Below are positions 10,937 through 59,407 of a DNA stretch of 59,407 nt, piece after piece. The notes beneath the pieces were generated by a model. The model saw nothing but the letters and a program-made list of their open reading frames with translations. It searched no databases and had not been told where the DNA came from. The stretch spans positions 1-59,407 of IMG/VR virus record IMGVR_UViG_3300042375_000244. The stretch is one strand, 5' to 3'. The position numbers and the translations under genes were made by a program. Origin of the DNA: a virus. How positions within the stretch are numbered: position 1 is the stretch's first letter; each line of letters starts with the position of its first letter.

Positions 10937-11169
10937 TTGTGCCTGTCTCCCAAGGGTTTCTCTTCGATCACCAGCTTCGACGTACCCAAGTGAGTTCGAG
11001 GTGCTGACAGAAAACGCATACCAAACTTAATACTACGAGTTCGTATTACTTGCGCTGTCATCGTTGTATCCAACGCATCAATAACATCCTGTATCGTTCC
11101 ACCACTTCTAAATATCTTTCGAACCTTCATGATTTCTTCAGAGGTCCAATCGGGATAAGTTATTCTCAC
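10933..11169 (-). CDS. Small helix-turn-helix (Myb/GcrA-like) protein, 78 aa
   Basis: GTG start 11169 behind AGGAGAT, overlapping the upstream stop as GTGA. The sequence YPDWTSEEIMKVRKIFRSGG, then TIQDVIDAL, then VIRTRSIKFGMRF, has the trihelical pattern W-x-EE-----(L/I)-x10-I-x2-hydrophobic with a final RS--- helix. This resembles GcrA or SANT/Myb-type DNA-binding domains. It sits directly downstream of a clearer GcrA-like protein and may be a diverged paralogue. Confidence 0.6.
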   Translation of the reverse strand: MRITYPDWTSEEIMKVRKIFRSGGTIQDVIDALDTTMTAQVIRTRSIKFGMRFLSAPRTHLGTSKLVIEEKPLGDRHK

Positions 11170-11384
11170 CTTGATCTCCTTCTCTTAAATCCCCAGCGCA
11201 CGATTGCACTCATGCGGCCTTTCTCCCGGTTGCAGAAAACCATTGGGCGTATGACCAGATCTCGGTTTCTATTAATCACGCCGATGATGACATTCTTGGT
11301 TATTCCTCCCATCCGGCGCACAATATCCCGTGATGCAATGCCGTCGTTCCACAGCCGGATGATCTCAGCGTTTCTTTCGTTCAT
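11166..11384 (-). CDS. GcrA-like helix-turn-helix protein, 72 aa
   Basis: Start at ATG 11384 (MNERNAEIIR) because GGAG lies 8 nt upstream; the in-frame upstream ATG at 11405 has no site. The segment IIRLWNDGIASRDIVRRMGG followed by ITKNVIIGVINR matches the N-terminal trihelical domain of GcrA (LxxLWxEGxSAxxIAxxLGG-VTRNAVIGKVHR). In Caulobacter, GcrA binds sigma70 and N6-methylated GANTC to control cell-cycle genes. Only the DNA-binding half is present. It may rewire host promoters during infection. Confidence 0.75.
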   Translation of the reverse strand: MNERNAEIIRLWNDGIASRDIVRRMGGITKNVIIGVINRNRDLVIRPMVFCNREKGRMSAIVRWGFKRRRSR

Positions 11385-11547
11385 GCCCTGTCTCCACATA
11401 GACACACGCTGTCTTGCTGCTCTTGGCGCACGACGGGCATTTTGAGGCGTTTATAGCTTTGATAACATCATCAACGTCTATCGGCATGTCTGACACGTCG
11501 TAGATCGTCCCGCACTTGCAGATCAAACGCAGCTTGTCATCGCTCAT
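11365..11547 (-). CDS. Small zinc-ribbon protein, 60 aa
   Basis: Two CxC/CxxC pairs (ICKCGTIYD near residue 10 and KCPSCAKSS near 37) spaced as in a rubredoxin-type zinc ribbon. ATG 11547 overlaps the upstream stop by ATGA. Its C-terminal basic tail overlaps the start of the GcrA-like gene. Presumably an adaptor for protein or nucleic-acid binding. Confidence 0.7.
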   Translation of the reverse strand: MSDDKLRLICKCGTIYDVSDMPIDVDDVIKAINASKCPSCAKSSKTACVYVETGHERKKR

Positions 11548-12108: not shown

Positions 12109-12326
12109 CTACCGTCTCCCCATGCAGCATTGCACTTCACACATTCCTTGAGCGTCTTGCTCCGCAACTCATAGCCACGGGCCAGCAAAACCGTGCCGCA
12201 GTCGCACAAGCAACGCCATATGGACCCCGAGCGTTCCTGCAACGTGCGCTTGACACGCGCCCGCTCGACCACCGTCAACCGACCATAGCGGTTGCCCGTC
12301 TCGTCTTTGAATTGGGCGATGCTCAT
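12105..12326 (-). CDS. Zinc-binding 'TGNRYGRLTV' protein, 73 aa
   Basis: DETGNRYGRLTVVERARVKR followed by WRCLCDCGTVLLARG and ECVKCNAAW. This is the N-terminal zinc-ribbon module often fused to AP2/HNH homing-type endonucleases. Here it stands alone, with four to five cysteines (CLCDC, CVKC) and no nuclease domain. It may be a DNA-binding relic or an adaptor. Coupled by ATGA on both sides. Confidence 0.72.
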   Translation of the reverse strand: MSIAQFKDETGNRYGRLTVVERARVKRTLQERSGSIWRCLCDCGTVLLARGYELRSKTLKECVKCNAAWGDGR

Positions 12327-12925
12327 TCGCCCCCCTCTTTCATCTCACTGTTGGGCATGCCCCTATAAAAGTTGCGCCTCGGGCTGGGCTTATCCCTCCG
12401 ATAGAACATCCGATTGTAATGCTCTTGGCAGTAAGCCTTCTGATGATCGCGCACCGTTTCCGACGCGTCCAAGCCACAGTAAATCCGGAAGCCGTCGTTC
12501 GTGACAGATTCCAAAGGGTAATGGCACTCGTCATACCCAAGGTTCAGCACAGTCTTGGCCTTGGCGTTCTTCGAGAAACAAAACGCAGAGGATTGCAGAT
12601 ATGCAGAATCGGACGCCGCTGGTGGGGTGGTCGCCGCCGCAGGAGGAACCGGACGCACGAAAGCCCCCTCCCCATTTCGTGCGGGCTCTTGCTTTACACG
12701 CCGCCCCTTGCGGGCCAGAGCTGGATTACGGATCGTGGCCCGCAGGTCCCCCTGCAACCGCGCCCGCATTACAATGCCGATCACCTTGTTGCGGGTAATG
12801 TTGAACTCAGCCGCAATCTCGGTGCTCGTGTACAACGGACCATGGAACCCTGACCACATATTCAGGACGCGACCACGCATGTCCTCGTATTCCGCGTCCT
12901 TGCCAGTATTCTTCAGCTCAGGCAT
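12323..12925 (-). CDS. GcrA-like cell-cycle regulator homologue, 200 aa
   Basis: Start at ATG 12925 behind GGAGGAGAT, the best ribosome site in the operon. The N-terminal domain has EIAAEFNITRNKVIGIVMRA, the GcrA-type helix-turn-helix. After an Ala/Pro linker, the C-terminal segment reads DECHYPLE, then FRIYCGL, then KAYCQEHYNRMFY. These match the cysteine-containing C-terminal signature of GcrA (CxWP, FxFCG, YCxxH). In Alphaproteobacteria GcrA tethers sigma70 at CcrM-methylated GANTC promoters. The complete domain plan makes this the strongest host marker in the genome; it may redirect host or phage transcription. Confidence 0.82.
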   Translation of the reverse strand: MPELKNTGKDAEYEDMRGRVLNMWSGFHGPLYTSTEIAAEFNITRNKVIGIVMRARLQGDLRATIRNPALARKGRRVKQEPARNGEGAFVRPVPPAAATTPPAASDSAYLQSSAFCFSKNAKAKTVLNLGYDECHYPLESVTNDGFRIYCGLDASETVRDHQKAYCQEHYNRMFYRRDKPSPRRNFYRGMPNSEMKEGGE

Positions 12926-13328
12926 GGCCGATCTCCTCCACGTTTGGATAAACGTACCGCCCCTTGCCATCGTCCGCGCCAAGCGTCTCTAAATACAAAG
13001 TCGCCATCATCTTCACGAACTCCGGAAGCTTCTCCCACTCGCTGCCTTGAGCCTTCCAAATCGCACAGAGCTGCTCAACCATCGCTATCGTGGCCGCGTT
13101 CATAATCACAATTCGCTGGCCGTTCTTGCTCTTCGCGCCAACAATGTCCGGGTTCTCGTCCAGAAACTGAACGACCTTTTGCATCGTTCCAGCGACCACG
13201 GCACAAATAATCGACGTCGAATGTTCCATAGGCGTCATGTTGGACGGGCGCTCCCCAATGAAGGCGATCTCTATTTCAACCGAAACCACCGGGTCAGACT
13301 GGAAGTCGGCTTCTTTGTTAGTGACCAT
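12918..13328 (-). CDS. Hypothetical protein, 136 aa
   Basis: An N-terminal beta-prone region (VSVEIEIAFIGE) precedes a helical part with an FLDENPDIVG element and a terminal acidic/aromatic tail. Its start overlaps the end of the nuclease homologue by 11 nt. Family not recognised; no cysteines in pairs and no membrane segment. Confidence 0.7.
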   Translation of the reverse strand: MVTNKEADFQSDPVVSVEIEIAFIGERPSNMTPMEHSTSIICAVVAGTMQKVVQFLDENPDIVGAKSKNGQRIVIMNAATIAMVEQLCAIWKAQGSEWEKLPEFVKMMATLYLETLGADDGKGRYVYPNVEEIGHA

Positions 13329-15435: not shown

Positions 15436-15739
15436 CGGCGCGATGACGGACCTTGAGTTCTGGCTGGAGCTGAAGGTCGTAAAAACTGTCAGCTTCAAGA
15501 CCGAGGGCTTGTGGAGACCCGCACAGGTGGCGTGGCAGATGAAGCGCGCCGCATCCACGCCTGACAGGATCTGGAATCTTGTCAGCCACCCGGCGGGCCA
15601 GTCTGTCAGATTGTACCGGGGCGACAAGGTGATGAATCTAAACCGTGGGATGGACGCGGTGACGGACTTTGAAACGCACCTTCCTCCGAACTGGTTCGCG
15701 ATGTTGGATTTCATCCGGAGGCGTAATGACAAAACGTAA
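15308..15739 (+). CDS. PDDEXK/VRR-NUC-like nuclease, 143 aa
   Basis: Start at ATG 15308, with GAGG 7 nt upstream, within the terminase gene in another frame. The motif RIEARVGAGIPDLNG, then EFWLELKVVK, gives the catalytic E...D...ExK layout of PDDEXK endonucleases of the VRR-NUC or Holliday-resolvase type. A TRIE element and a GxPDLN turn are characteristic of phage members. It probably trims branched DNA before or during packaging, which its place between terS and a regulator fits. Confidence 0.8.
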   Translation: MSRTAKSLSTEAGLWKSLQTATTKMVHWTRIEARVGAGIPDLNGAMTDLEFWLELKVVKTVSFKTEGLWRPAQVAWQMKRAASTPDRIWNLVSHPAGQSVRLYRGDKVMNLNRGMDAVTDFETHLPPNWFAMLDFIRRRNDKT

Positions 15740-16106
15740 CCCTGTCAGCTTTAGCATAGCTGTGCCGCAAGATTTTTATGATTTCATGAACGTGGCAATC
15801 ATCCACGCAAGGCAGACCCGCAACATCAAGATCTCAAGGCGGCGCGTCTGTCTGGCGTCAGGTCTGTCACACGCGACCCTGTTTGAAGCGGAAAAGCGCC
15901 AGCGCGACCTGTCTTTTGGAACGATCATACGATGCTGCACGGTGCTGGGATACGAACTCAAACTTGTCAGGTTGCCGCCGCCACGCGCGATTGCGGAATA
16001 TGACGAGGCAATCCGAGAGCGGCCCGGCGCGCGCAAGAAAAAGCCGACCGGAGGCGTGAACTTTTTCAAAAAGAAAAACACCGCACCTCCGGAAGAGGCG
16101 CGGTGA
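15726..16106 (+). CDS. XRE-type helix-turn-helix protein, 126 aa
   Basis: ATG 15726 with GGAGG upstream. Residues about 38-75 (RRRVCLASGLSHATLFEAEK then FGTIIRCCTVLGYELKLV) fit the Cro/CI helix-turn-helix as found in HipB-like antitoxins. The C-terminal tail is basic (KKKPTGG, FKKKN). It overlaps the nuclease by 14 nt. No toxin partner is adjacent, so it is more likely a phage regulator than an antitoxin. Confidence 0.78.
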   Translation: MTKRNPVSFSIAVPQDFYDFMNVAIIHARQTRNIKISRRRVCLASGLSHATLFEAEKRQRDLSFGTIIRCCTVLGYELKLVRLPPPRAIAEYDEAIRERPGARKKKPTGGVNFFKKKNTAPPEEAR

Positions 16107-16671: not shown

Positions 16672-17583
16672 CTAGGCGGCCTCCTGAACGGGCGCGCCGC
16701 CGTGTTCCTTGAGCATGGTTTCCAGCCACAAGGCGGGGTTCTTGATCGTTGCGTCGTCCATATGCGCCGCGCCGATATAAAGGCTGGCGGCTGCGTCGGG
16801 GATTGCGCGGGCTAGGATTGCGTGCGCGTGCGCGCGGATTGCGTCTTGGCCTCCCCTGTACGGCCAGTGTAGATTTTGCGTGTCTACTGGCGCGCCCGTG
16901 ACTTCATAGGCTGCGCCATAGTATAGGCTCCGCGCCGTGCTGGTGTGGCATAGCATGTGCGCTGCGCGGGCAAGGTCCAGCGGGGCGGTGTCCATACGCG
17001 TGAATATGTGACAGGCGTCATGGCGTCGCTGGTCCCGCAGATGTCCCGCCGTTACGCTGACGCCAACATATAGCGAGACCGGGCGGGCGGCTGACAGAAG
17101 GCGCACGAGCGCCAAGATTGCGGCGCCTCGCTTTTCAAGGTCAACGCTGTCGATGCCTGCGCTGCTGGCAATGTCCACAATGATTGCGAGCGGTGCTTGG
17201 TCGCTGCTGATGCGCTGACGCTGACGCATTGCCAGCGGGTGGCCTGCCAGTGCTGCCGGGACGCACGGGACGCCCCCGGCGACTGCTGCAACCGTGCGCC
17301 AGCGCCGCGAGACTAGGTGCAAGGCCTCGAAGCGGGTCAAAAACTCATCGGAGCGCGCGACAATGGCGGGGTTTCCCTCGCGGAGGCAGCGCATGCTGGC
17401 GTCGAATGACAGCCCGCCGCGCCACGCGTCGCCCTTGTCCGAACGGGCGGGGCGCGCCTTGTTGACGCTCTTGAAAAGCGTCGCCGTCTGCGTCATGTCG
17501 CCAATGGCGTATGTGTCGAGCGTCGTCTTGCATCCATCGCGCGCCGCTATGGCGTCGATTGCAGGAAGCGTGAACTTGTGCAT
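16672..17583 (-). CDS. vWA-like partner protein of the AAA+ ATPase (DUF7192-like), 303 aa
   Basis: Start at ATG 17583 behind GAGGGGG; a TTG at 17598 is in frame but less likely. The centre reads APLAIIVDIASSAGIDSVD, then RGAAILALVRLLSAARPVSL and YVGVSV. This resembles the first strand and metal site of a von Willebrand A domain, but the usual DxSxS is DIASS here, so metal binding is doubtful. MoxR/CobS-type ATPases are habitually paired with vWA proteins, and this gene lies immediately downstream of such an ATPase. I infer a chaperone-like complex; the substrate is unknown. Confidence 0.65.
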   Translation of the reverse strand: MHKFTLPAIDAIAARDGCKTTLDTYAIGDMTQTATLFKSVNKARPARSDKGDAWRGGLSFDASMRCLREGNPAIVARSDEFLTRFEALHLVSRRWRTVAAVAGGVPCVPAALAGHPLAMRQRQRISSDQAPLAIIVDIASSAGIDSVDLEKRGAAILALVRLLSAARPVSLYVGVSVTAGHLRDQRRHDACHIFTRMDTAPLDLARAAHMLCHTSTARSLYYGAAYEVTGAPVDTQNLHWPYRGGQDAIRAHAHAILARAIPDAAASLYIGAAHMDDATIKNPALWLETMLKEHGGAPVQEAA

Positions 17584-17584
17584 C

Positions 17585-18976
17585 TTAGACCCCCTCAATC
17601 ATGCGGCGCTGGTCGGCGCTCAACCCGGCGAGATAGGTTAAGTCGGCTGCTTCGTCGCTCGTAAAGCCCGCAGCGATAAGTGCCGCGCCCGCTTGCATCT
17701 GGCGCAAGTCAATCAGATGCTTGAGACCCACGGCGCGGGCGCGCTCGCGTGCTGCTTGTACGCGCCGCGCAAATGCCGCATCGCCAGAGATTGCAACCTC
17801 CAGCGCCGGGTCTGCATCCCACTGGAGCTTGACCGGAAAGCGTGACAGAAAAGCAGCGTCGAGGCGATTGCGCCCGACAAAATCAGCCGTCGCGCCTGTC
17901 CCGTGCGTGTTACCTGCGCCGATGATGACGCAATCCCGATGCCGCGCGACCATACCATCAGGAAAGCCCGCATATCCGTTCGCGAGCGCCGCGTTGAGCG
18001 CCAGCGTTACGCCTGCATCCCAGCTATCAAGCTCATCAAGGATAACCAGCCCGCCCTTTTCAAACGCATCCCGGAAAGGCGTCCGATGTGTCCGTCCGTG
18101 CGCGTCCGTAAAGCCCAAAAGCTCATGCGACATGCTCATCGCGCCGTGCGCGTAGTACTCCAGCCCAAGCGCGCTCGCTACCTGATGCGCCGCGTGGGTC
18201 TTGCCGGTGCCGGTCGGCCCGACTAACATCGCGTTTGGCGTATAGCCTGAGGTCATACGCGACGAGCATGTGCGGAGTAGGCGCGCAAGCTGCGGGTGCG
18301 TGTGTCCCTCGGTTTTGCCGGTTGTGCCGTCGTGCCGGGCAACCTCGATCCGGACGGTCTGCACGTTCTCAAGGCGGCGCTCGACGATGCGCGTAATCTC
18401 GGGCGCCAGCGCGCCGAGGATGTGCGGCAACACCATCGCGCCAAGTGCTGCGCCTGCCGGGTCGGCGGCTGTCACGGCTGCATCTGGCACGACTGCCGGA
18501 GGCGTCGTGGTCGTGGTCGTGGCCGTCTGCGCCTGTCCTGTTTTCGCGGCGCGTGCCGCCTGTCCCTGTTCGGTGGCGCGTATTAGGCACATATACTGCG
18601 CCGACGTTGCCGCGCCGTTTTGTTTGTTTTGAACCGTGTCAATTATGCTGTCACATTTGACGTTCTCCGCGCCGTCCCATGGCAGGAAGGAGCGGATCTC
18701 TCTGTAACCTTCAACGGCTGCGGCAAATGTCGCCGCGTCTATGTTGCGTTCCTTCATGTTGTCCTCCTGCGTTGTGGTGTTGCTCGCCTCTGCTGCTGCG
18801 AGCACGGCGTAGATGTCAATTCCAAGAGCCTTGCAGGCTGCAATGCACTCTGTCGTGCCAAGGCTGCTGGCGTCCAATCCGTGTTCGCGCCGGTAGGCGG
18901 TCCAGCCGTGGTGGCTGGTGATCGCCCGGCGCACGATTGATCGGCGCGCTACTCCTAAAATAATCTGGTCGCTCAT
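17585..18976 (-). CDS. AAA+ ATPase, MoxR/CobS type, 463 aa
   Basis: ATP-driven remodelling protein. Walker A GPTGTGKT at 253-260 (K259), Walker B VILDELD with D314-E315, a sensor-1-like GAGNTHG and an arginine-rich sensor-2 region place it in the AAA_5/MoxR-CobS group. Residues 1-73 form a separate helical, HTH-like region (YRREHGLDASSLGTTECIAA); a Thr/Pro linker lies near 155. ATG 18976 has AGAAAGGG upstream. A second in-frame ATG at 18757 (Met74) has a perfect AGGAGG 5 nt upstream, so a 390-residue shorter form is probably made as well. First gene of a self-contained leftward island with its own promoter. Confidence 0.85.
   Translation of the reverse strand: MSDQIILGVARRSIVRRAITSHHGWTAYRREHGLDASSLGTTECIAACKALGIDIYAVLAAAEASNTTTQEDNMKERNIDAATFAAAVEGYREIRSFLPWDGAENVKCDSIIDTVQNKQNGAATSAQYMCLIRATEQGQAARAAKTGQAQTATTTTTTPPAVVPDAAVTAADPAGAALGAMVLPHILGALAPEITRIVERRLENVQTVRIEVARHDGTTGKTEGHTHPQLARLLRTCSSRMTSGYTPNAMLVGPTGTGKTHAAHQVASALGLEYYAHGAMSMSHELLGFTDAHGRTHRTPFRDAFEKGGLVILDELDSWDAGVTLALNAALANGYAGFPDGMVARHRDCVIIGAGNTHGTGATADFVGRNRLDAAFLSRFPVKLQWDADPALEVAISGDAAFARRVQAARERARAVGLKHLIDLRQMQAGAALIAAGFTSDEAADLTYLAGLSADQRRMIEGV
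18757..18768 (-). promoter_or_regulatory. Internal translation start within the AAA+ gene
   Basis: AGGAGG (18768-18763), five bases, then an in-frame ATG (18757-18755) at codon 74. It is a better Shine-Dalgarno than that of the full-length start. Confidence 0.6.
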
Positions 18977-19187: not shown

Positions 19188-19355
19188 GATCTGTCAGCCG
19201 GTAATCTGACAAAAGCCCCACGATTATCTGACACCGATCTGTCAGCCGGCAAACTGTCAGCGTCTTGTCACCGGCCCACGCCCCCTGCTGTTCTGTCAGT
19301 GGTCGATGATCGACGGAGGCTGTCAGGCTGTCAGCGGCTGTCAGGCGGCTGTCAC
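19188..19355 (+). repeat. Iteron-like cluster of CTGTCAG
   Basis: Seven exact CTGTCAG copies, all in the same orientation, at 19191, 19239, 19254, 19293, 19320, 19328 and 19338, plus CTGTCAC at 19349 and CTGACA at 19206 and 19228. The 14-mer GATCTGTCAGCCGG occurs twice (19188 and 19236). The same heptamer is dispersed through the rest of the genome. Confidence 0.85.
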
Positions 19356-19369
19356 GGGTCCCTTGCCCC

Positions 19370-19400
19370 TTGACCTCTGCCCATGGTGTAACGTTATAAC
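19370..19400 (+). promoter_or_regulatory. Possible rightward late promoter
   Basis: TTGACC (19370-19375), 19-nt spacer, TATAAC (19395-19400). The spacer is long and the leader to the terminase would be about 340 nt, so this is tentative. Confidence 0.25.
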
Positions 19401-19608
19401 ATAGGCGACCCCCCTAAACGGGGCGCGTCGCGCACGGACGCACATATATCACTGTTTGTCTCGCTAAATCAGCAACTTCCAGAGGTCCATGGTCCAGGTA
19501 CAGTTTACTCCGGTTTTCCAAACCCCCACCCAACCACCTCTGCAAACCTCACCCCCGTAAACCAAACAAACCCCTCAAGGGACCCTACCCCCACCCCCAT
19601 CAAAAAAA

Positions 19609-19624
19609 TGTTTCACGTGAAACA
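19609..19624. promoter_or_regulatory. parS centromere site (perfect palindrome)
   Basis: TGTTTCACGTGAAACA is the consensus chromosomal parS bound by ParB across most bacteria, and symmetry extends by one base on each side (19608-19625). It is non-coding, 119 bp upstream of the large terminase. The genome has no ParA or complete ParB, so host ParB is the obvious ligand. Confidence 0.88.
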
Positions 19625-19688
19625 TCGGACGGTGGTCAAATCTGCGGGATCTTTTTGCAATCACCATCCTGCTCTGCCCACGGCCCTC

Positions 19689-19743: not shown

Positions 19744-21210
19744 ATGTCTGCATTGGAATTACTGCCTGATGAGGCTGCCAAGCGGTACGCGCAGCTTTTG
19801 GACCGTGCTGTTAAGATGACGAAGCAGGAGACGGCGCGGGAGAGCTTTATTGATTACGTGAAGTACGTGTGGCCGGGATTTGTGGCCGGGCGGCATCATA
19901 AGATTGTTGCTGACAAGCTGGAGCGTGTGGCTCGTGGCGAGTTAAAGCGTTTGATTATCAACATGCCGCCAAGGCATACGAAGTCTGAGTTTGCGAGCTT
20001 TTTGTTTCCCTCGTGGTTCATTGGGCGGATGCCGACGAAGAAGATCATGCAGGCGACGCATACTGCGGATTTGTCGGTTCGGTTTGGCCGCAAGGTCAGG
20101 AACCTGATGGACGGCGAGGACTACCATCAGGTGTTCCCGCAGGTGAAGTTGAGGGCGGACAGTAAGGCTGCTTATCGGTGGGAGACGGACGACGGCGGCG
20201 AGTATTACGCGGCGGGTGTTGGGTCGAACATTGCGGGTCGCGGCGCTGATTTGTTCATTGTGGACGACCCGCACTCGGAGCAGGACGCGCTATCGCCGAC
20301 GGCTTTGGATGCGGCGTGGGACTGGTATATGTCGGGACCTCGGCAGCGGTTGCAGCCGGGCGGGGCGATTGTTGTGGTTATGACTCGTTGGGGCGACAAG
20401 GACCTGACGGCGCGTTTGCTCAAGCAGCAGGCGACGGACCCGAAGGCTGACCAGTGGGAGATAGTCGAGTTTCCGGCGATCTTGGACTCTGGCAGATCTC
20501 TGTGGCCGGAGTATTGGAAGCTGGAGGAGTTGGAGAAGATCCGTGCGTCCATCAGTTCGTCGAAGTGGCAAGCGCAGTATATGCAGCAGCCGACTTCTGA
20601 CACGGCGGCGATTATCAAGCGGGACTGGTGGCAGATTTGGGAACCGGAGAAGGTGCCGCGTTTACAGTATGTTATGCAGTCTTACGATACGGCGTACCTG
20701 AAAACACGGACCTCTGACTTTACGGCGATACAGACGTGGGGTGTGTTTTACCCGAAGGAGGACTCGGGGCCGAACGTGATTCTTTTGGACGCTAGGAAAG
20801 GCCGGTGGGAGTTTCCTGAGCTGAAGCGGATTGCGTATGAAGAGTACAAGTATTGGGAGCCTGACACGATTTTGATTGAGGCGAAGGCTGCGGGTATGCC
20901 TCTGACGCAGGAGCTGCGGCAGATGGGAATACCTGTCGTGAACTTCTCGCCAAGCAGGGGCAACGACAAGCACGCGCGTGTTAATGCTGTAGCGCCTATG
21001 TTTGAGTCTGGTTTAGTGTGGAGGCCGGACGCTTCGTGGGCGGAGGAGGTCGTAGAGGAAATCGCGGCCTTCCCGTTTGCCGATCATGATGATATGGTCG
21101 ATTGTGCTACGCAGGCTTTGATGCGGTTCCGGCAGGGCGGGTTTGTGTCCCATCCTGATGATTACCAGATGGACGACGAACCACGGTCCACCAACAGGGT
21201 ATACTACTGA
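19744..21210 (+). CDS. terL: Terminase large subunit
   Basis: ATP-driven packaging motor and nuclease. The ATPase domain has a deviant Walker A MPPRHTKS (74-81, K80), usual in this TerL group, and Walker B LFIVDDPHSE with D174-D175. The RNase-H-type nuclease domain has D315 in SYDTAY and the late acidic cluster DHDDMVD (D447-D453). 488 residues is normal length. GGAG precedes ATG 19744. Its stop overlaps the portal start as TGATG. It is the first gene of the long morphogenesis operon. Confidence 0.95.
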   Translation: MSALELLPDEAAKRYAQLLDRAVKMTKQETARESFIDYVKYVWPGFVAGRHHKIVADKLERVARGELKRLIINMPPRHTKSEFASFLFPSWFIGRMPTKKIMQATHTADLSVRFGRKVRNLMDGEDYHQVFPQVKLRADSKAAYRWETDDGGEYYAAGVGSNIAGRGADLFIVDDPHSEQDALSPTALDAAWDWYMSGPRQRLQPGGAIVVVMTRWGDKDLTARLLKQQATDPKADQWEIVEFPAILDSGRSLWPEYWKLEELEKIRASISSSKWQAQYMQQPTSDTAAIIKRDWWQIWEPEKVPRLQYVMQSYDTAYLKTRTSDFTAIQTWGVFYPKEDSGPNVILLDARKGRWEFPELKRIAYEEYKYWEPDTILIEAKAAGMPLTQELRQMGIPVVNFSPSRGNDKHARVNAVAPMFESGLVWRPDASWAEEVVEEIAAFPFADHDDMVDCATQALMRFRQGGFVSHPDDYQMDDEPRSTNRVYY

Positions 21211-28770: not shown

Positions 28771-28971
28771 GTGTCAGATATTTACATTATTGACAGATTG
28801 TTTAAGGTAATCCGTGAGCGGCGCGAGACAGTCACTGAGGCGATTACAGAAGGCTCGGTTCAGGACTATGCTGCTTTCCGCCACCTTCGAGGCAAACTCG
28901 AAGTGTGGAAGGAGGTTGAGGAAGAACTTCGCTTTCTGCTAAAAAGACAAGGTGATCCAGACGATGGGTAG
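28771..28971 (+). CDS. Small charged phage protein, 66 aa
   Basis: GTG start 28771 with AAGGA upstream. MSDIYIIDRLFKVIRERRET, then VQDYAAFRHLRGKLEVWKEV: two amphipathic helices, a plan seen in small proteins preceding the capsid genes of T7-like and pelagic phages. Likely a minor head or scaffold-associated factor; function unknown. Confidence 0.7.
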   Translation: MSDIYIIDRLFKVIRERRETVTEAITEGSVQDYAAFRHLRGKLEVWKEVEEELRFLLKRQGDPDDG

Positions 28972-29449
28972 TCTCATACTTCCAAATTGGCTTTCACGTA
29001 AGCCTGTTGAAACAGAGGTTCCAAAGGAGCCCGGCTCAGAGGCCACCGGCCTGCAACAAGCGTTTGTTTCAGAGTCTGACAGGGTTCTCGACCCCACTAA
29101 AATCCCTGACACGGTACTTGGTCGTATGCCCCAGCCAACTGGCTGGCGCCTTCTTGTGCTCCCCTACAAAGGATCCAAGAAGTCAAAGGGTGGCATAGAG
29201 TTTACCGACGCCTACATAGAGTCTCAAAGTCTGGCTACCGTTGTAGCCTACGTTCTTGGCGTGGGTCCTGACGCCTATGCGGACATTAAAAAGTTCCCCA
29301 TGGGGCCTTGGTGCAAAAAGGGTCAGTGGGTCATGATCGGTCGCTATTGCGGAGCCCGATTCCGGATCGAAGGCGGAGAAGTCCGCATCATCAACGACGA
29401 TGAAGTCATCGCAACAATCGCTGATCCAGCAGACATCTTCAATGTCTGA
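28964..29449 (+). CDS. Phage co-chaperonin (GroES-like), 161 aa
   Basis: Start at ATG 28964; an upstream GTG is less likely. From residue about 55, PTGWRLLVLPYKGSKKSKGG followed by VVAYVLGVGPDAYAD, PWCKKGQWVMIGRYCG and the end ADPADI fits the Cpn10 beta-barrel. The mobile-loop position (KGSKKSKGGIEF) is shortened. Phage GroES-like proteins replace the host cap so that GroEL can fold the major capsid protein, and its place before scaffold and capsid agrees. The N-terminal 50 residues are a variable extension. Confidence 0.78.
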   Translation: MGSLILPNWLSRKPVETEVPKEPGSEATGLQQAFVSESDRVLDPTKIPDTVLGRMPQPTGWRLLVLPYKGSKKSKGGIEFTDAYIESQSLATVVAYVLGVGPDAYADIKKFPMGPWCKKGQWVMIGRYCGARFRIEGGEVRIINDDEVIATIADPADIFNV

Positions 29450-29471
29450 CAGCGCAGCAATGGAGATTGCT

Positions 29472-30353
29472 ATGTCCGAAGAAGACAAGAACGAAGACGA
29501 CGGCTCGATAGAAGTCACGTTGGTGGACGAGGCTCCAACGGAAACTCCCGTTGTAGAAAAGGAAGAGACGGTATCAGCGAGAGCTGACAGAGATCTGGAG
29601 GAGCACTCCGAATCTGTCAGGAAGCGAATTGACAAGCTCACCTACAAGGTCCGAGAAGCCGAGCGCCGTGAACAGGCTGCGCTGGAGTTTGCCAAGGGTC
29701 TGAAAGGCCAGCTCGACACTTATCAGGATCGGGCGCATCGTCTCGACAAGTCTCTTGTGCAAGAGTTCGATAACCGACTCAAGACGCAAGAGAAGATGGT
29801 CCGCGAGGAACTCCGCCGGGCAATCGACGAGGGCAACATCGACGCCCAGATCGACGCCCAGAGTTCCTTGGCGGCTCTTGCTGTTGAGAACGACAAGCTC
29901 CGTCAGACCCGCGCGCGTCGCGAGCATGATGAGACCCAACGTGCGGCTGTCGCCGCAGCTCCTCCTCCGGTTCAGCGCGCACCTCAAGCGCCGCAACCTG
30001 ACCCGAAAGCTAGGTCTTGGGCCGAGCGAAATGACTGGTTTGGCAACGACCGAGCCATGACGGCAACGGCCTATGCCATCCATGCAGACTTGATTGAGGT
30101 GGAAGGTTTCGACCCTTCTTCTGACGATTACTACAAAGAGCTTGATTCCCGTATTCGTGGGGAATTTCCCCATAAATTCAAGGCTGTGGCGCAAAATACC
30201 CGTCCGCAGCCGATGGTGGGATCGGCAAGGAATACTGTTAAGTCCGGTGGGAACAAGGTCAAACTGACAGAAAGTCAGATTAAAGTTGCCAAGTCACTGG
30301 GTGTTAGTTTAGAAGAGTATGCAAGACATACTCGATTGCAGCAGCAAGGTTAG
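29472..30353 (+). CDS. Scaffolding protein, 293 aa
   Basis: Directs capsid shell assembly, then leaves. Start at ATG 29472 (MSEEDKNEDDG) because GGAG lies 6 nt upstream; earlier in-frame ATGs at 29442 and 29460 lack sites. The acidic N terminus, long coiled coil (residues about 45-155, many KxxE repeats), Pro/Ala linker and C-terminal helix-turn-helix (KLTESQIKVAKSLGVSLEEY) are typical of podovirus scaffolds. It lies just before the capsid genes. Confidence 0.82.
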   Translation: MSEEDKNEDDGSIEVTLVDEAPTETPVVEKEETVSARADRDLEEHSESVRKRIDKLTYKVREAERREQAALEFAKGLKGQLDTYQDRAHRLDKSLVQEFDNRLKTQEKMVREELRRAIDEGNIDAQIDAQSSLAALAVENDKLRQTRARREHDETQRAAVAAAPPPVQRAPQAPQPDPKARSWAERNDWFGNDRAMTATAYAIHADLIEVEGFDPSSDDYYKELDSRIRGEFPHKFKAVAQNTRPQPMVGSARNTVKSGGNKVKLTESQIKVAKSLGVSLEEYARHTRLQQQG

Positions 30354-48368: not shown

Positions 48369-49430
48369 ATGGCTGAAGTCACATCACAAGAACAGATTGT
48401 CCGCGAAGCCCCGGAGATTGAAGCCTATAAGCTAGGGCTTCTTGATCTTGCGAAGCAGCGCGCAGAAGTTCCTGTCGATCTTCCGGAAGCGCAGATTGCA
48501 GGGTTAACGCCTGAGCAACAAACTGCCCGTCTGTTGGCTGCTAGGGGAATAGGTGCCTACCAGCCTTACATGACCGGAGCCGGAGAGGCGTATCAAACCG
48601 CAGCGGCAGGATACGGCGCACTACCTTCTTACGGAACCGAGGCCCTTGGCGCTGTTCGACAAGGGGCCAACGTCGGCACCGGCCTATCGGTGCAGGGGGC
48701 GCAGGCTTACGATCCCCGCTCCGCTGCGGCGTTCATGAACCCCTACCAGCAACAGGTCACACGAGAAGCAACCAAGGAGATGCAGCGTCAGGCTGACATC
48801 GCTCGGGCGCAGCAGTCGGCGCAATCTGTCAGGACGGGTTCCTTTGGTGGTAGCCGTCAGGGTGTGCAGGCGTCGGAGCTTGCTCGTAACCTTGCGGACA
48901 TCCAGTCGAAGCGCATCTTCGAGGACTACTCAACAAACTTCAGTCAGGCGCAGGCGCAGGCCATGAACGCCTTCCAGAACCAGCAGGGTCGTTTGCAACA
49001 AGCTGGACAGACGGCGTTGGGTGCCGGAACTGCTGTTGGTCAGGCTGCGATTTCTGCGGGCGGTTTGCAGCAAGGCGCGGCTGCGGGGCTCGCGGGGCTT
49101 GGTCAGCAGACCGCCGCCCTTGGACAACAGATTTCTGGGTTGGGTCAGGGCGATGCTTCGTTCCTGTACAACCTTGGCGAGAAGACCCGTGGCTACGAGC
49201 AATCTGTTATTGACGCTGCACGACAGAGCAGCATCCAGCAGGAATACGAGCCCTTCCAGAGGATTTCGTTTCTTAGCGACATCTACAAGGGTGCGCCGTC
49301 TTCCCAACAGACGATCAGTCAGACATCGGCCCCGTCGGCCTCGCTTGCCTCGCAGGCGGGCGGGCTGGGTATTGCAGCTCTGTCGGCGTATAATCTGTTT
49401 GGCGGCGGCAAGTCCGGAACGGGCGGCTAA
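48369..49430 (+). CDS. Gln/Ala-rich ejection protein, 353 aa
   Basis: Mostly helical. EEQ-like N terminus, then AAFMNPYQQQVTREATKEMQ, AQQSAQSVRTGSFGGSRQGV and a long AQAQAMNAFQNQQGRLQQAG coiled region. The 'aFmNPYqq-V----l--i-r' block typifies podovirus internal/ejection proteins next to the polyvalent protein. No enzyme motif. Confidence 0.78.
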   Translation: MAEVTSQEQIVREAPEIEAYKLGLLDLAKQRAEVPVDLPEAQIAGLTPEQQTARLLAARGIGAYQPYMTGAGEAYQTAAAGYGALPSYGTEALGAVRQGANVGTGLSVQGAQAYDPRSAAAFMNPYQQQVTREATKEMQRQADIARAQQSAQSVRTGSFGGSRQGVQASELARNLADIQSKRIFEDYSTNFSQAQAQAMNAFQNQQGRLQQAGQTALGAGTAVGQAAISAGGLQQGAAAGLAGLGQQTAALGQQISGLGQGDASFLYNLGEKTRGYEQSVIDAARQSSIQQEYEPFQRISFLSDIYKGAPSSQQTISQTSAPSASLASQAGGLGIAALSAYNLFGGGKSGTGG

Positions 49431-59180: not shown

Positions 59181-59407
59181 TCAAATAAGCCATTCTTTGT
59201 ACCCCTCGGACAGCACCTCGCTGGCGATGTTGATCTTGTTCCGGAGCGCCTTGAGGACCTTCTCCTCAACGGTGTTCTCCGTAACAAGGTCGATGTACGT
59301 CACGTTGTTCTTCTGCCCGATCCGGTGAGCACGGTCCTCTGACTGGATGCGAACCTCCAAATCAAAGCTGTTGGCGTAGTAAATAACCGTCGAGGCTTCT
59401 GTCAGGG
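59181..59407 (-). CDS. SNF2-family helicase, 3' part and repeat-overlap copy
   Basis: Continues the gene at 1-1350. The unique part 59285-59181 supplies the last 34 residues (ending SEGYKEWLI) and stop TGA 59183-59181; bases 59286-59407 duplicate 1-122 and encode the motif VI region. Frame is preserved across the junction. Confidence 0.92.
   Translation of the reverse strand, partial: LTEASTVIYYANSFDLEVRIQSEDRAHRIGQKNNVTYIDLVTENTVEEKVLKALRNKINIASEVLSEGYKEWLI
59286..59407. repeat. Terminal direct repeat (copy 2)
   Basis: Exact copy of 1-122; see copy 1. Confidence 0.95.

Follow-up and report, generated by a model that had tools for sequence, protein, structure and literature searches.

The virus record analysed here in full, an IMG/VR entry of 59,407 bases (hereafter the window), carries at 19608-19625 a perfect 18-bp palindrome, ATGTTTCACGTGAAACAT, which is likely to be a working parS for the chromosomal ParB of the phage's bacterial host, on a phage without a ParB of its own; we put the case no higher than likely, the host being unknown and no binding data existing for this phage. 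An earlier note, made from the letters of the DNA only, had proposed such an orphan parS meant for host ParB. That proposal has withstood all computational tests available, while binding itself is inferred. Specifically, i) the site stands out as a conserved footprint in G111, a co-linear 48-kb relative; ii) perfect copies recur at another locus in two sister phages, G110 and G112; iii) no ParB domains were found; and iv) the parS sequence is enriched, and placed non-randomly, across phages in general.

A perfect parS between divergent genes

The core 16-mer TGTTTCACGTGAAACA (19609-19624) occurs once in the window and matches the parS consensus at 16 of 16 positions, and one symmetric base added on each side extends it to the 18-bp palindrome, which has no strand; both claims of the earlier note held. 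All 18 bp are contained in the 22-bp parS duplex GGATGTTTCACGTGAAACATCC with which Caulobacter crescentus ParB was crystallised (PMC8367383), and binding of the exact 18-mer by Caulobacter ParB in vitro is known from the literature (PMC8367383). At the level of sequence the 16-mer equals the parS consensus of bacterial chromosomes; ParB binding and CTP-dependent spreading are inferred for this phage and its host. The site was the sole match in a window-wide search allowing up to 3 mismatches, and its palindrome was the only one in the whole window with arms of at least 7 and no loop. Markov models of the window (order 1-3) predict 0.7-1.7e-5 perfect copies of the 16-mer, upholding the figure of about 1e-5 previously given. 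Such an expectation is not zero, and the window had been screened for oddities, but chance occurrence is all but excluded, and we reject it on that expectation, on the 18-bp footprint in G111, and because G110 and G112 have perfect sites as well.

The site is non-coding, lying as previously described between divergent operons, in a 767-bp intergenic region bordered on the left by a leftward AAA+ ATPase gene (17585-18976, minus strand) and on the right by the rightward gene for the terminase large subunit (19744-21210, plus strand), whose start lies about 120 bp downstream of the site. Family scans identified both genes, as well as the DUF7192 gene (16672-17598) that neighbours the AAA+ ATPase gene; these last two (16672-18976) are a conserved gene pair to the left of parS.

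Whole-record searches of the window with ParB_N (PF02195) and HTH_ParB (PF17762) were both negative, so that a phage-encoded ParB can be rejected, and no ParB domains were found in the window's relatives. The earlier note's statement that a full ParB is lacking thus held; as to its statement that ParA is lacking, no ParA-type match was seen in the roughly 45 window ORFs scanned, a scan that left out some small ORFs and included no whole-genome ParA profile. The window accordingly fails the criterion for a self-contained ParABS system (that it encode ParB) and meets that for a phi29-like arrangement (parS on a phage genome without ParB).

Family scans of the same ORFs (about 45) found an SU10-type portal, a terminase_6-type terminase, primase, a UvrD-type helicase, PolA, an endolysin, and head and tail genes. 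They also include a homologue of the cell-cycle regulator GcrA (12323-12982, minus strand; PF07750, E=3.4e-12), beside which lies a second short GcrA-like ORF (11166-11405; PF07750, E=8e-5, below cut-off). GcrA, a conserved protein of Alphaproteobacteria, has homologues in PhiCbK-like phages (PMC9437464), and because the window encodes a member of this family we infer that the host is likely alphaproteobacterial; a terminase search of bacterial genomes for the host gave no useful match. In both G111 and G112 the sequence continues unbroken from window position 59407 into position 2, which argues for a circular or permuted map and for a window that probably approaches a full genome.

Conservation and relocation in relatives

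The earlier note had suggested searching related phages for the same 16-mer at the same locus, and had held that absence or mutation of the site in close relatives would refute its proposal. This condition is fulfilled only in part. The nearest relative (L122/L203; 10 kb, 94% nucleotide identity) has parS at the corresponding position, altered by a single C-to-T change in the centre (TGTTTCATGTGAAACA) that leaves both arms intact; the same central variant is found beside perfect sites in G080 and in Enterococcus phage CUB-FM, and its affinity for ParB is unknown. (The left end of L122, positions 1-325, repeats part of the terminase sequence, window 20510-20185, in inverted orientation, and is probably a chimera made during amplification or assembly.) Terminase relatives at 77% amino acid identity and below have no parS at the terminase locus, and the whole records of the relatives G005 (50 kb) and G011 (58 kb) contain no site within 2 mismatches.

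The missing site in terminase relatives first resembled non-conservation, but a search with the scaffold protein (29400-30353) then gave closer phages: perfect parS is present in 3 of the best four scaffold relatives (72-77% amino acid identity), the fourth being an 8.6-kb fragment without it. Across the scaffold-gene relatives as a whole parS was not seen in 47 of 50, many of which are fragments; given these and the blank records of G005 and G011, parS is not indispensable to the family at large.

In G111 the corresponding intergenic region retains all 18 bp. The two regions are 69% identical overall, and their longest identical run, of 24 nt (19603-19626, no strand), includes an A-tract and the whole of parS. 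The next-longest runs are two 21-nt blocks (neither assigned a strand), one directly left of parS (19576-19596) and the other at 19348-19368, which hold the two halves of a conserved inverted repeat, CAAGGGACCC at 19576-19585 and GGGTCCCTTG at 19356-19365. The iteron-like cluster that had been noted nearby is also borne out: eight CTGTCA copies, all on the plus strand, were counted at 19191-19354 and a ninth lies further left, making 9 in the intergenic region, where shuffled sequence gives 0.22, and the matching region of G111 has 12. The cluster could be an origin or a protein-binding array, and 19191-19585, which takes in both the one-strand repeats and the inverted repeat, may be a replication origin or packaging region beside parS; we regard both suggestions as possibilities only.

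In G110 and G112 the perfect site lies at another locus, inside a co-chaperonin-like gene, whose window homologue is a Cpn10-like gene (28952-29449) upstream of the scaffold gene. There parS occupies the variable N-terminal part and is translated as ETVSRETSDS or ENVSRETSEP, where the window homologue has unrelated residues; the G110 and G112 records exclude the terminase region, and a second copy there is neither shown nor ruled out. Scaffold homologues in L202/L205, L262 (two copies), and L007 read parS as VSRET in variable linkers, at differing positions, while the linkers of the window's own scaffold homologue lack it, and in G027 (58% terminase identity) a parS-like palindrome, TGTTCCACGTGGAACA, is found at yet another place. 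That the lineage retains parS while its position differs argues for selection on the site itself rather than on a local gene feature. The 24-nt run in G111 and the perfect sites in G110 and G112 meet our criterion for DNA-level selection, with the central change in L122 as a caveat.

Orphan parS sites across phages

In INPHARED (50,697 records) the exact 16-mer is present in at least 286 records and a control palindrome of the same composition in none; the figure of 286 was obtained with neutral flanks, and rises to 315 if partial matches of 16-17 bases to the 18-mer are included. Many of these records are close kin (87 are from Listeria phages, for example), so independent lineages are fewer than 286. 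Carriers include the Listeria phages A511 and P100plus, the phi29-like Bacillus phages B103 and Goe1, phages of Lactobacillus, Arthrobacter, Gordonia, Microbacterium, and Ruegeria, Spiroplasma phage 4, uncultured microviruses, and an inovirus. None of the INPHARED rows covered, which make up less than half of the records, names an enterobacterial host; E. coli and its relatives have no ParB, but the absence is suggestive only. In IMG/VR the 16-mer and the 18-mer each matched at least 120 rows, and control palindromes 5 and 33.

No ParB_N match was found in 46 of 50 larger parS-bearing viral contigs or in 15 of 16 parS-bearing isolates. B103 and Goe1, which lack a ParB_N domain, each combine one perfect parS with another that has one mismatch, and have a coding site in gene 15; DSS3P8, a phage of Ruegeria pomeroyi DSS-3, has 3 sites and likewise no ParB_N domain. 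IMG/VR contigs may be incomplete and some may be chromosomal contamination, concerns from which the isolates are free. Because hundreds of phage records carry parS, and most of the carriers tested have no ParB_N domain, we infer that such phages probably borrow the ParB of their hosts.

Three carriers deserve separate mention. Microbacterium phage KaiHaiDragon (NC_048020.1) is the one tested isolate with both parS and a ParB_N protein (record positions 49017-49274); a 6.2-kb inovirus (PQ006097.1) has six perfect copies; and G066, a 116-kb viral contig, has 24 parS-like sites in clusters between 91700 and 109008 and no ParB_N match. Multi-site phages of the last two kinds (24 sites in G066, six in the 6-kb inovirus) speak for a decoy function, in which the phage would titrate ParB (or SMC) off the chromosome and so disturb the host cell cycle. 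Here, however, there is one site per genome, the host chromosome has sites of its own, and a single clamp-loading site would, we infer, be a weak sink until late in replication. We therefore hold a decoy to be very unlikely.

The placement of the sites also bears on what is selected. Among 207 distinct parS contexts in viral contigs, 86 are intergenic, 9 sit on a gene edge, 51 are no more than 60 bp from the end of a gene, and 61 are mid-gene; intergenic or gene-end placement thus accounts for 146/207 parS sites but 4/29 control sites (Fisher p=5e-9), the remaining 25/29 controls being mid-gene. ORF calls were mechanical, so these classes are approximate. Coding copies are read in both open frames (VSRET in 63 cases, FHVK in 19), and 85 similarity groups are represented among the VSRET-frame proteins. 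Selection on a VSRET or FHVK peptide can be rejected, since the sites use two frames, occur in many proteins unrelated to one another, and in many cases lie outside coding sequence. With two coding frames in use and intergenic or gene-end sites so frequent, selection acts on the DNA and not on a peptide. One small protein of 77 residues (L204, 1530-1763) begins MNVSRET and ends ENVSRETSEPAD, with a perfect parS at each end of its gene. Among 33 variants that lie near perfect sites and differ from parS by one mismatch, 32 have it at the outermost base or at position 5/12; natural parS sites are known to vary at these same positions.

Two further readings of the palindrome fare poorly against these data. 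It might be an operator that coincides with parS by accident and serves some transcription factor, of phage or host, other than ParB. For this speak the perfect symmetry, the divergent regulatory setting, and a weak HTH_3 match at 15669-16106 (below the Pfam cut-off); against it, the site is single copy in the window, the same sequence is found in phages of Firmicutes, Actinobacteria, and Alphaproteobacteria, which share no evident regulator, and the one-mismatch variants cluster at the two position pairs just mentioned. An operator is thus very unlikely. Alternatively, the minus strand might form an intrinsic terminator ending leftward antisense transcripts, as it folds into a hairpin whose 7-8 pairs precede a T7 run (U7 in the transcript), and L122 retains the stem and the A-run despite its changed loop, while G111 retains the A-run. 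But the stem has just 2 G-C pairs, falls short of the criterion of a GC-rich stem, and was not called by a terminator scan; among the 207 parS contexts from viral contigs only 16 have a T-run next to them; terminators need no single sequence, yet control palindromes are far rarer than the exact 16-mer; and the sister lineages have the motif inside coding genes. We judge a terminator very unlikely too, and have rejected it for its weak stem, the negative scan, and the rarity of T-runs at other parS sites.

Nor do the data point to a particular lifestyle. Tyrosine integrase (PF00589) was not found in the window, by a profile that covers the tyrosine type only and not serine integrases, and integrase frequency in parS contigs (9/50) does not differ from that in controls (3/35). 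There is thus no lifestyle signal, and a tie between parS and temperate lifestyle is rejected.

Possible uses of host ParB and comparison with known systems

Our preferred reading, that the site recruits the host's own ParB, can be set out as a series of predicted steps. Host ParB would load at 19609-19624 as a CTP clamp and, from known ParB biology, spread over kilobases to cover the repeat cluster, the divergent promoters, and the terminase promoter; the cell would then treat the ParB-coated phage genome like an origin region, and the phage DNA would be coupled to the host's ParA, SMC, and polar machinery, whether for movement by ParA, for tethering at a pole, or for a supply of SMC. The likeliest benefit would be that phage DNA is placed within the cell, or is shared out to daughter cells if lysis comes late; silencing of nearby promoters or loading of SMC may contribute to the effect. 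We wish to be clear that ParB binding in the true host during infection, the partitioning of phage DNA by host ParB, and any benefit to the phage are all inferred. Nor can the uses that the earlier note had suggested (segregation, placement by SMC, tethering, and titration) be told apart from sequence alone, except that titration is the least likely with one site per genome.

A transcriptional use remains a live alternative or addition, though unlikely as the main one: spreading ParB might silence the divergent early and terminase promoters and so delay lysis when free ParB is plentiful or at a certain stage of the cell cycle (lytic deferment). In its favour, parS lies in the divergent control region close upstream of the terminase, the window encodes a GcrA homologue, CtrA-based lytic deferment has been reported for alphaproteobacterial phages (PMC9437464), and spreading ParB is known to silence genes in plasmids and in phage P1. 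Against it, the parS sites of sister phages sit in structural-gene operons (the co-chaperonin-like and scaffold genes) rather than at promoters, and many sites across phages are within genes; promoter placement is thus not required. Since the sister-phage sites are not tied to promoters, we favour placement or segregation by host ParB over silencing.

A bolder reading would extend the recruitment of host ParB well beyond this lineage. In this reading, phages of ParB-bearing bacteria, ranging from single-stranded DNA micro- and inoviruses up to large myoviruses, have gained the centromere sequence of their hosts without a ParB, in repeated and independent events, and have often placed it in structural genes, within disordered linkers or terminal codons; hijacking of host ParB would then be a general phage strategy, of which this lineage, with one locus in some members and another in sisters, is an example. 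Taken as a whole we consider this reading more likely than not. A phage precedent for the use of host ParB exists; in the literature we searched (which excluded most subscription journals and preprints) we did not find widespread orphan parS, a case from an alphaproteobacterial-type lineage, or parS inside structural genes. Most bacteria rely on ParB as the central protein of chromosome segregation, and a cheap 16-bp tag that recruits it would open the host's segregation, SMC, and polar machinery even to a 5-kb phage. Whether lytic phages ride on ParB is testable with the isolates B103 and Goe1 (B. subtilis), DSS3P8 (Ruegeria), and Huntingdon (Arthrobacter). A practical corollary is that phages can mislead parS scans meant to locate replication origins in metagenomic bins.

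Four known systems invite comparison. The chromosomal ParABS of Caulobacter, Bacillus, and most bacteria has the identical 16-mer, and the window's 18 bp match the Caulobacter crystal duplex (PMC8367383); the window's site differs in being single copy, on a phage without ParB domains, and not near a chromosomal oriC. The closest precedent, and the one experimental case we could trace, is phi29, whose genome is entrapped in spores by Spo0J (ParB) (Meijer 2005, as cited in PMC9437464): there too a phage without ParB relies on that of its host, as we infer for the present phage, which is unrelated to phi29, has a probable alphaproteobacterial host that does not form endospores, and carries its site in non-coding DNA upstream of the terminase. 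The phage-plasmids P1 and N15 and the extrachromosomal mycobacterial prophages likewise have a centromere site on phage DNA. Such phage-plasmids encode both ParA and ParB and usually have plasmid-type centromeres, whereas the window has the host's consensus and no ParB domain. Finally, the CtrA sites of alphaproteobacterial phages (PMC9437464) resemble the present case in that a phage adopts the binding site of a host cell-cycle protein, but the protein is a transcription factor in those phages and a segregation protein in this one.
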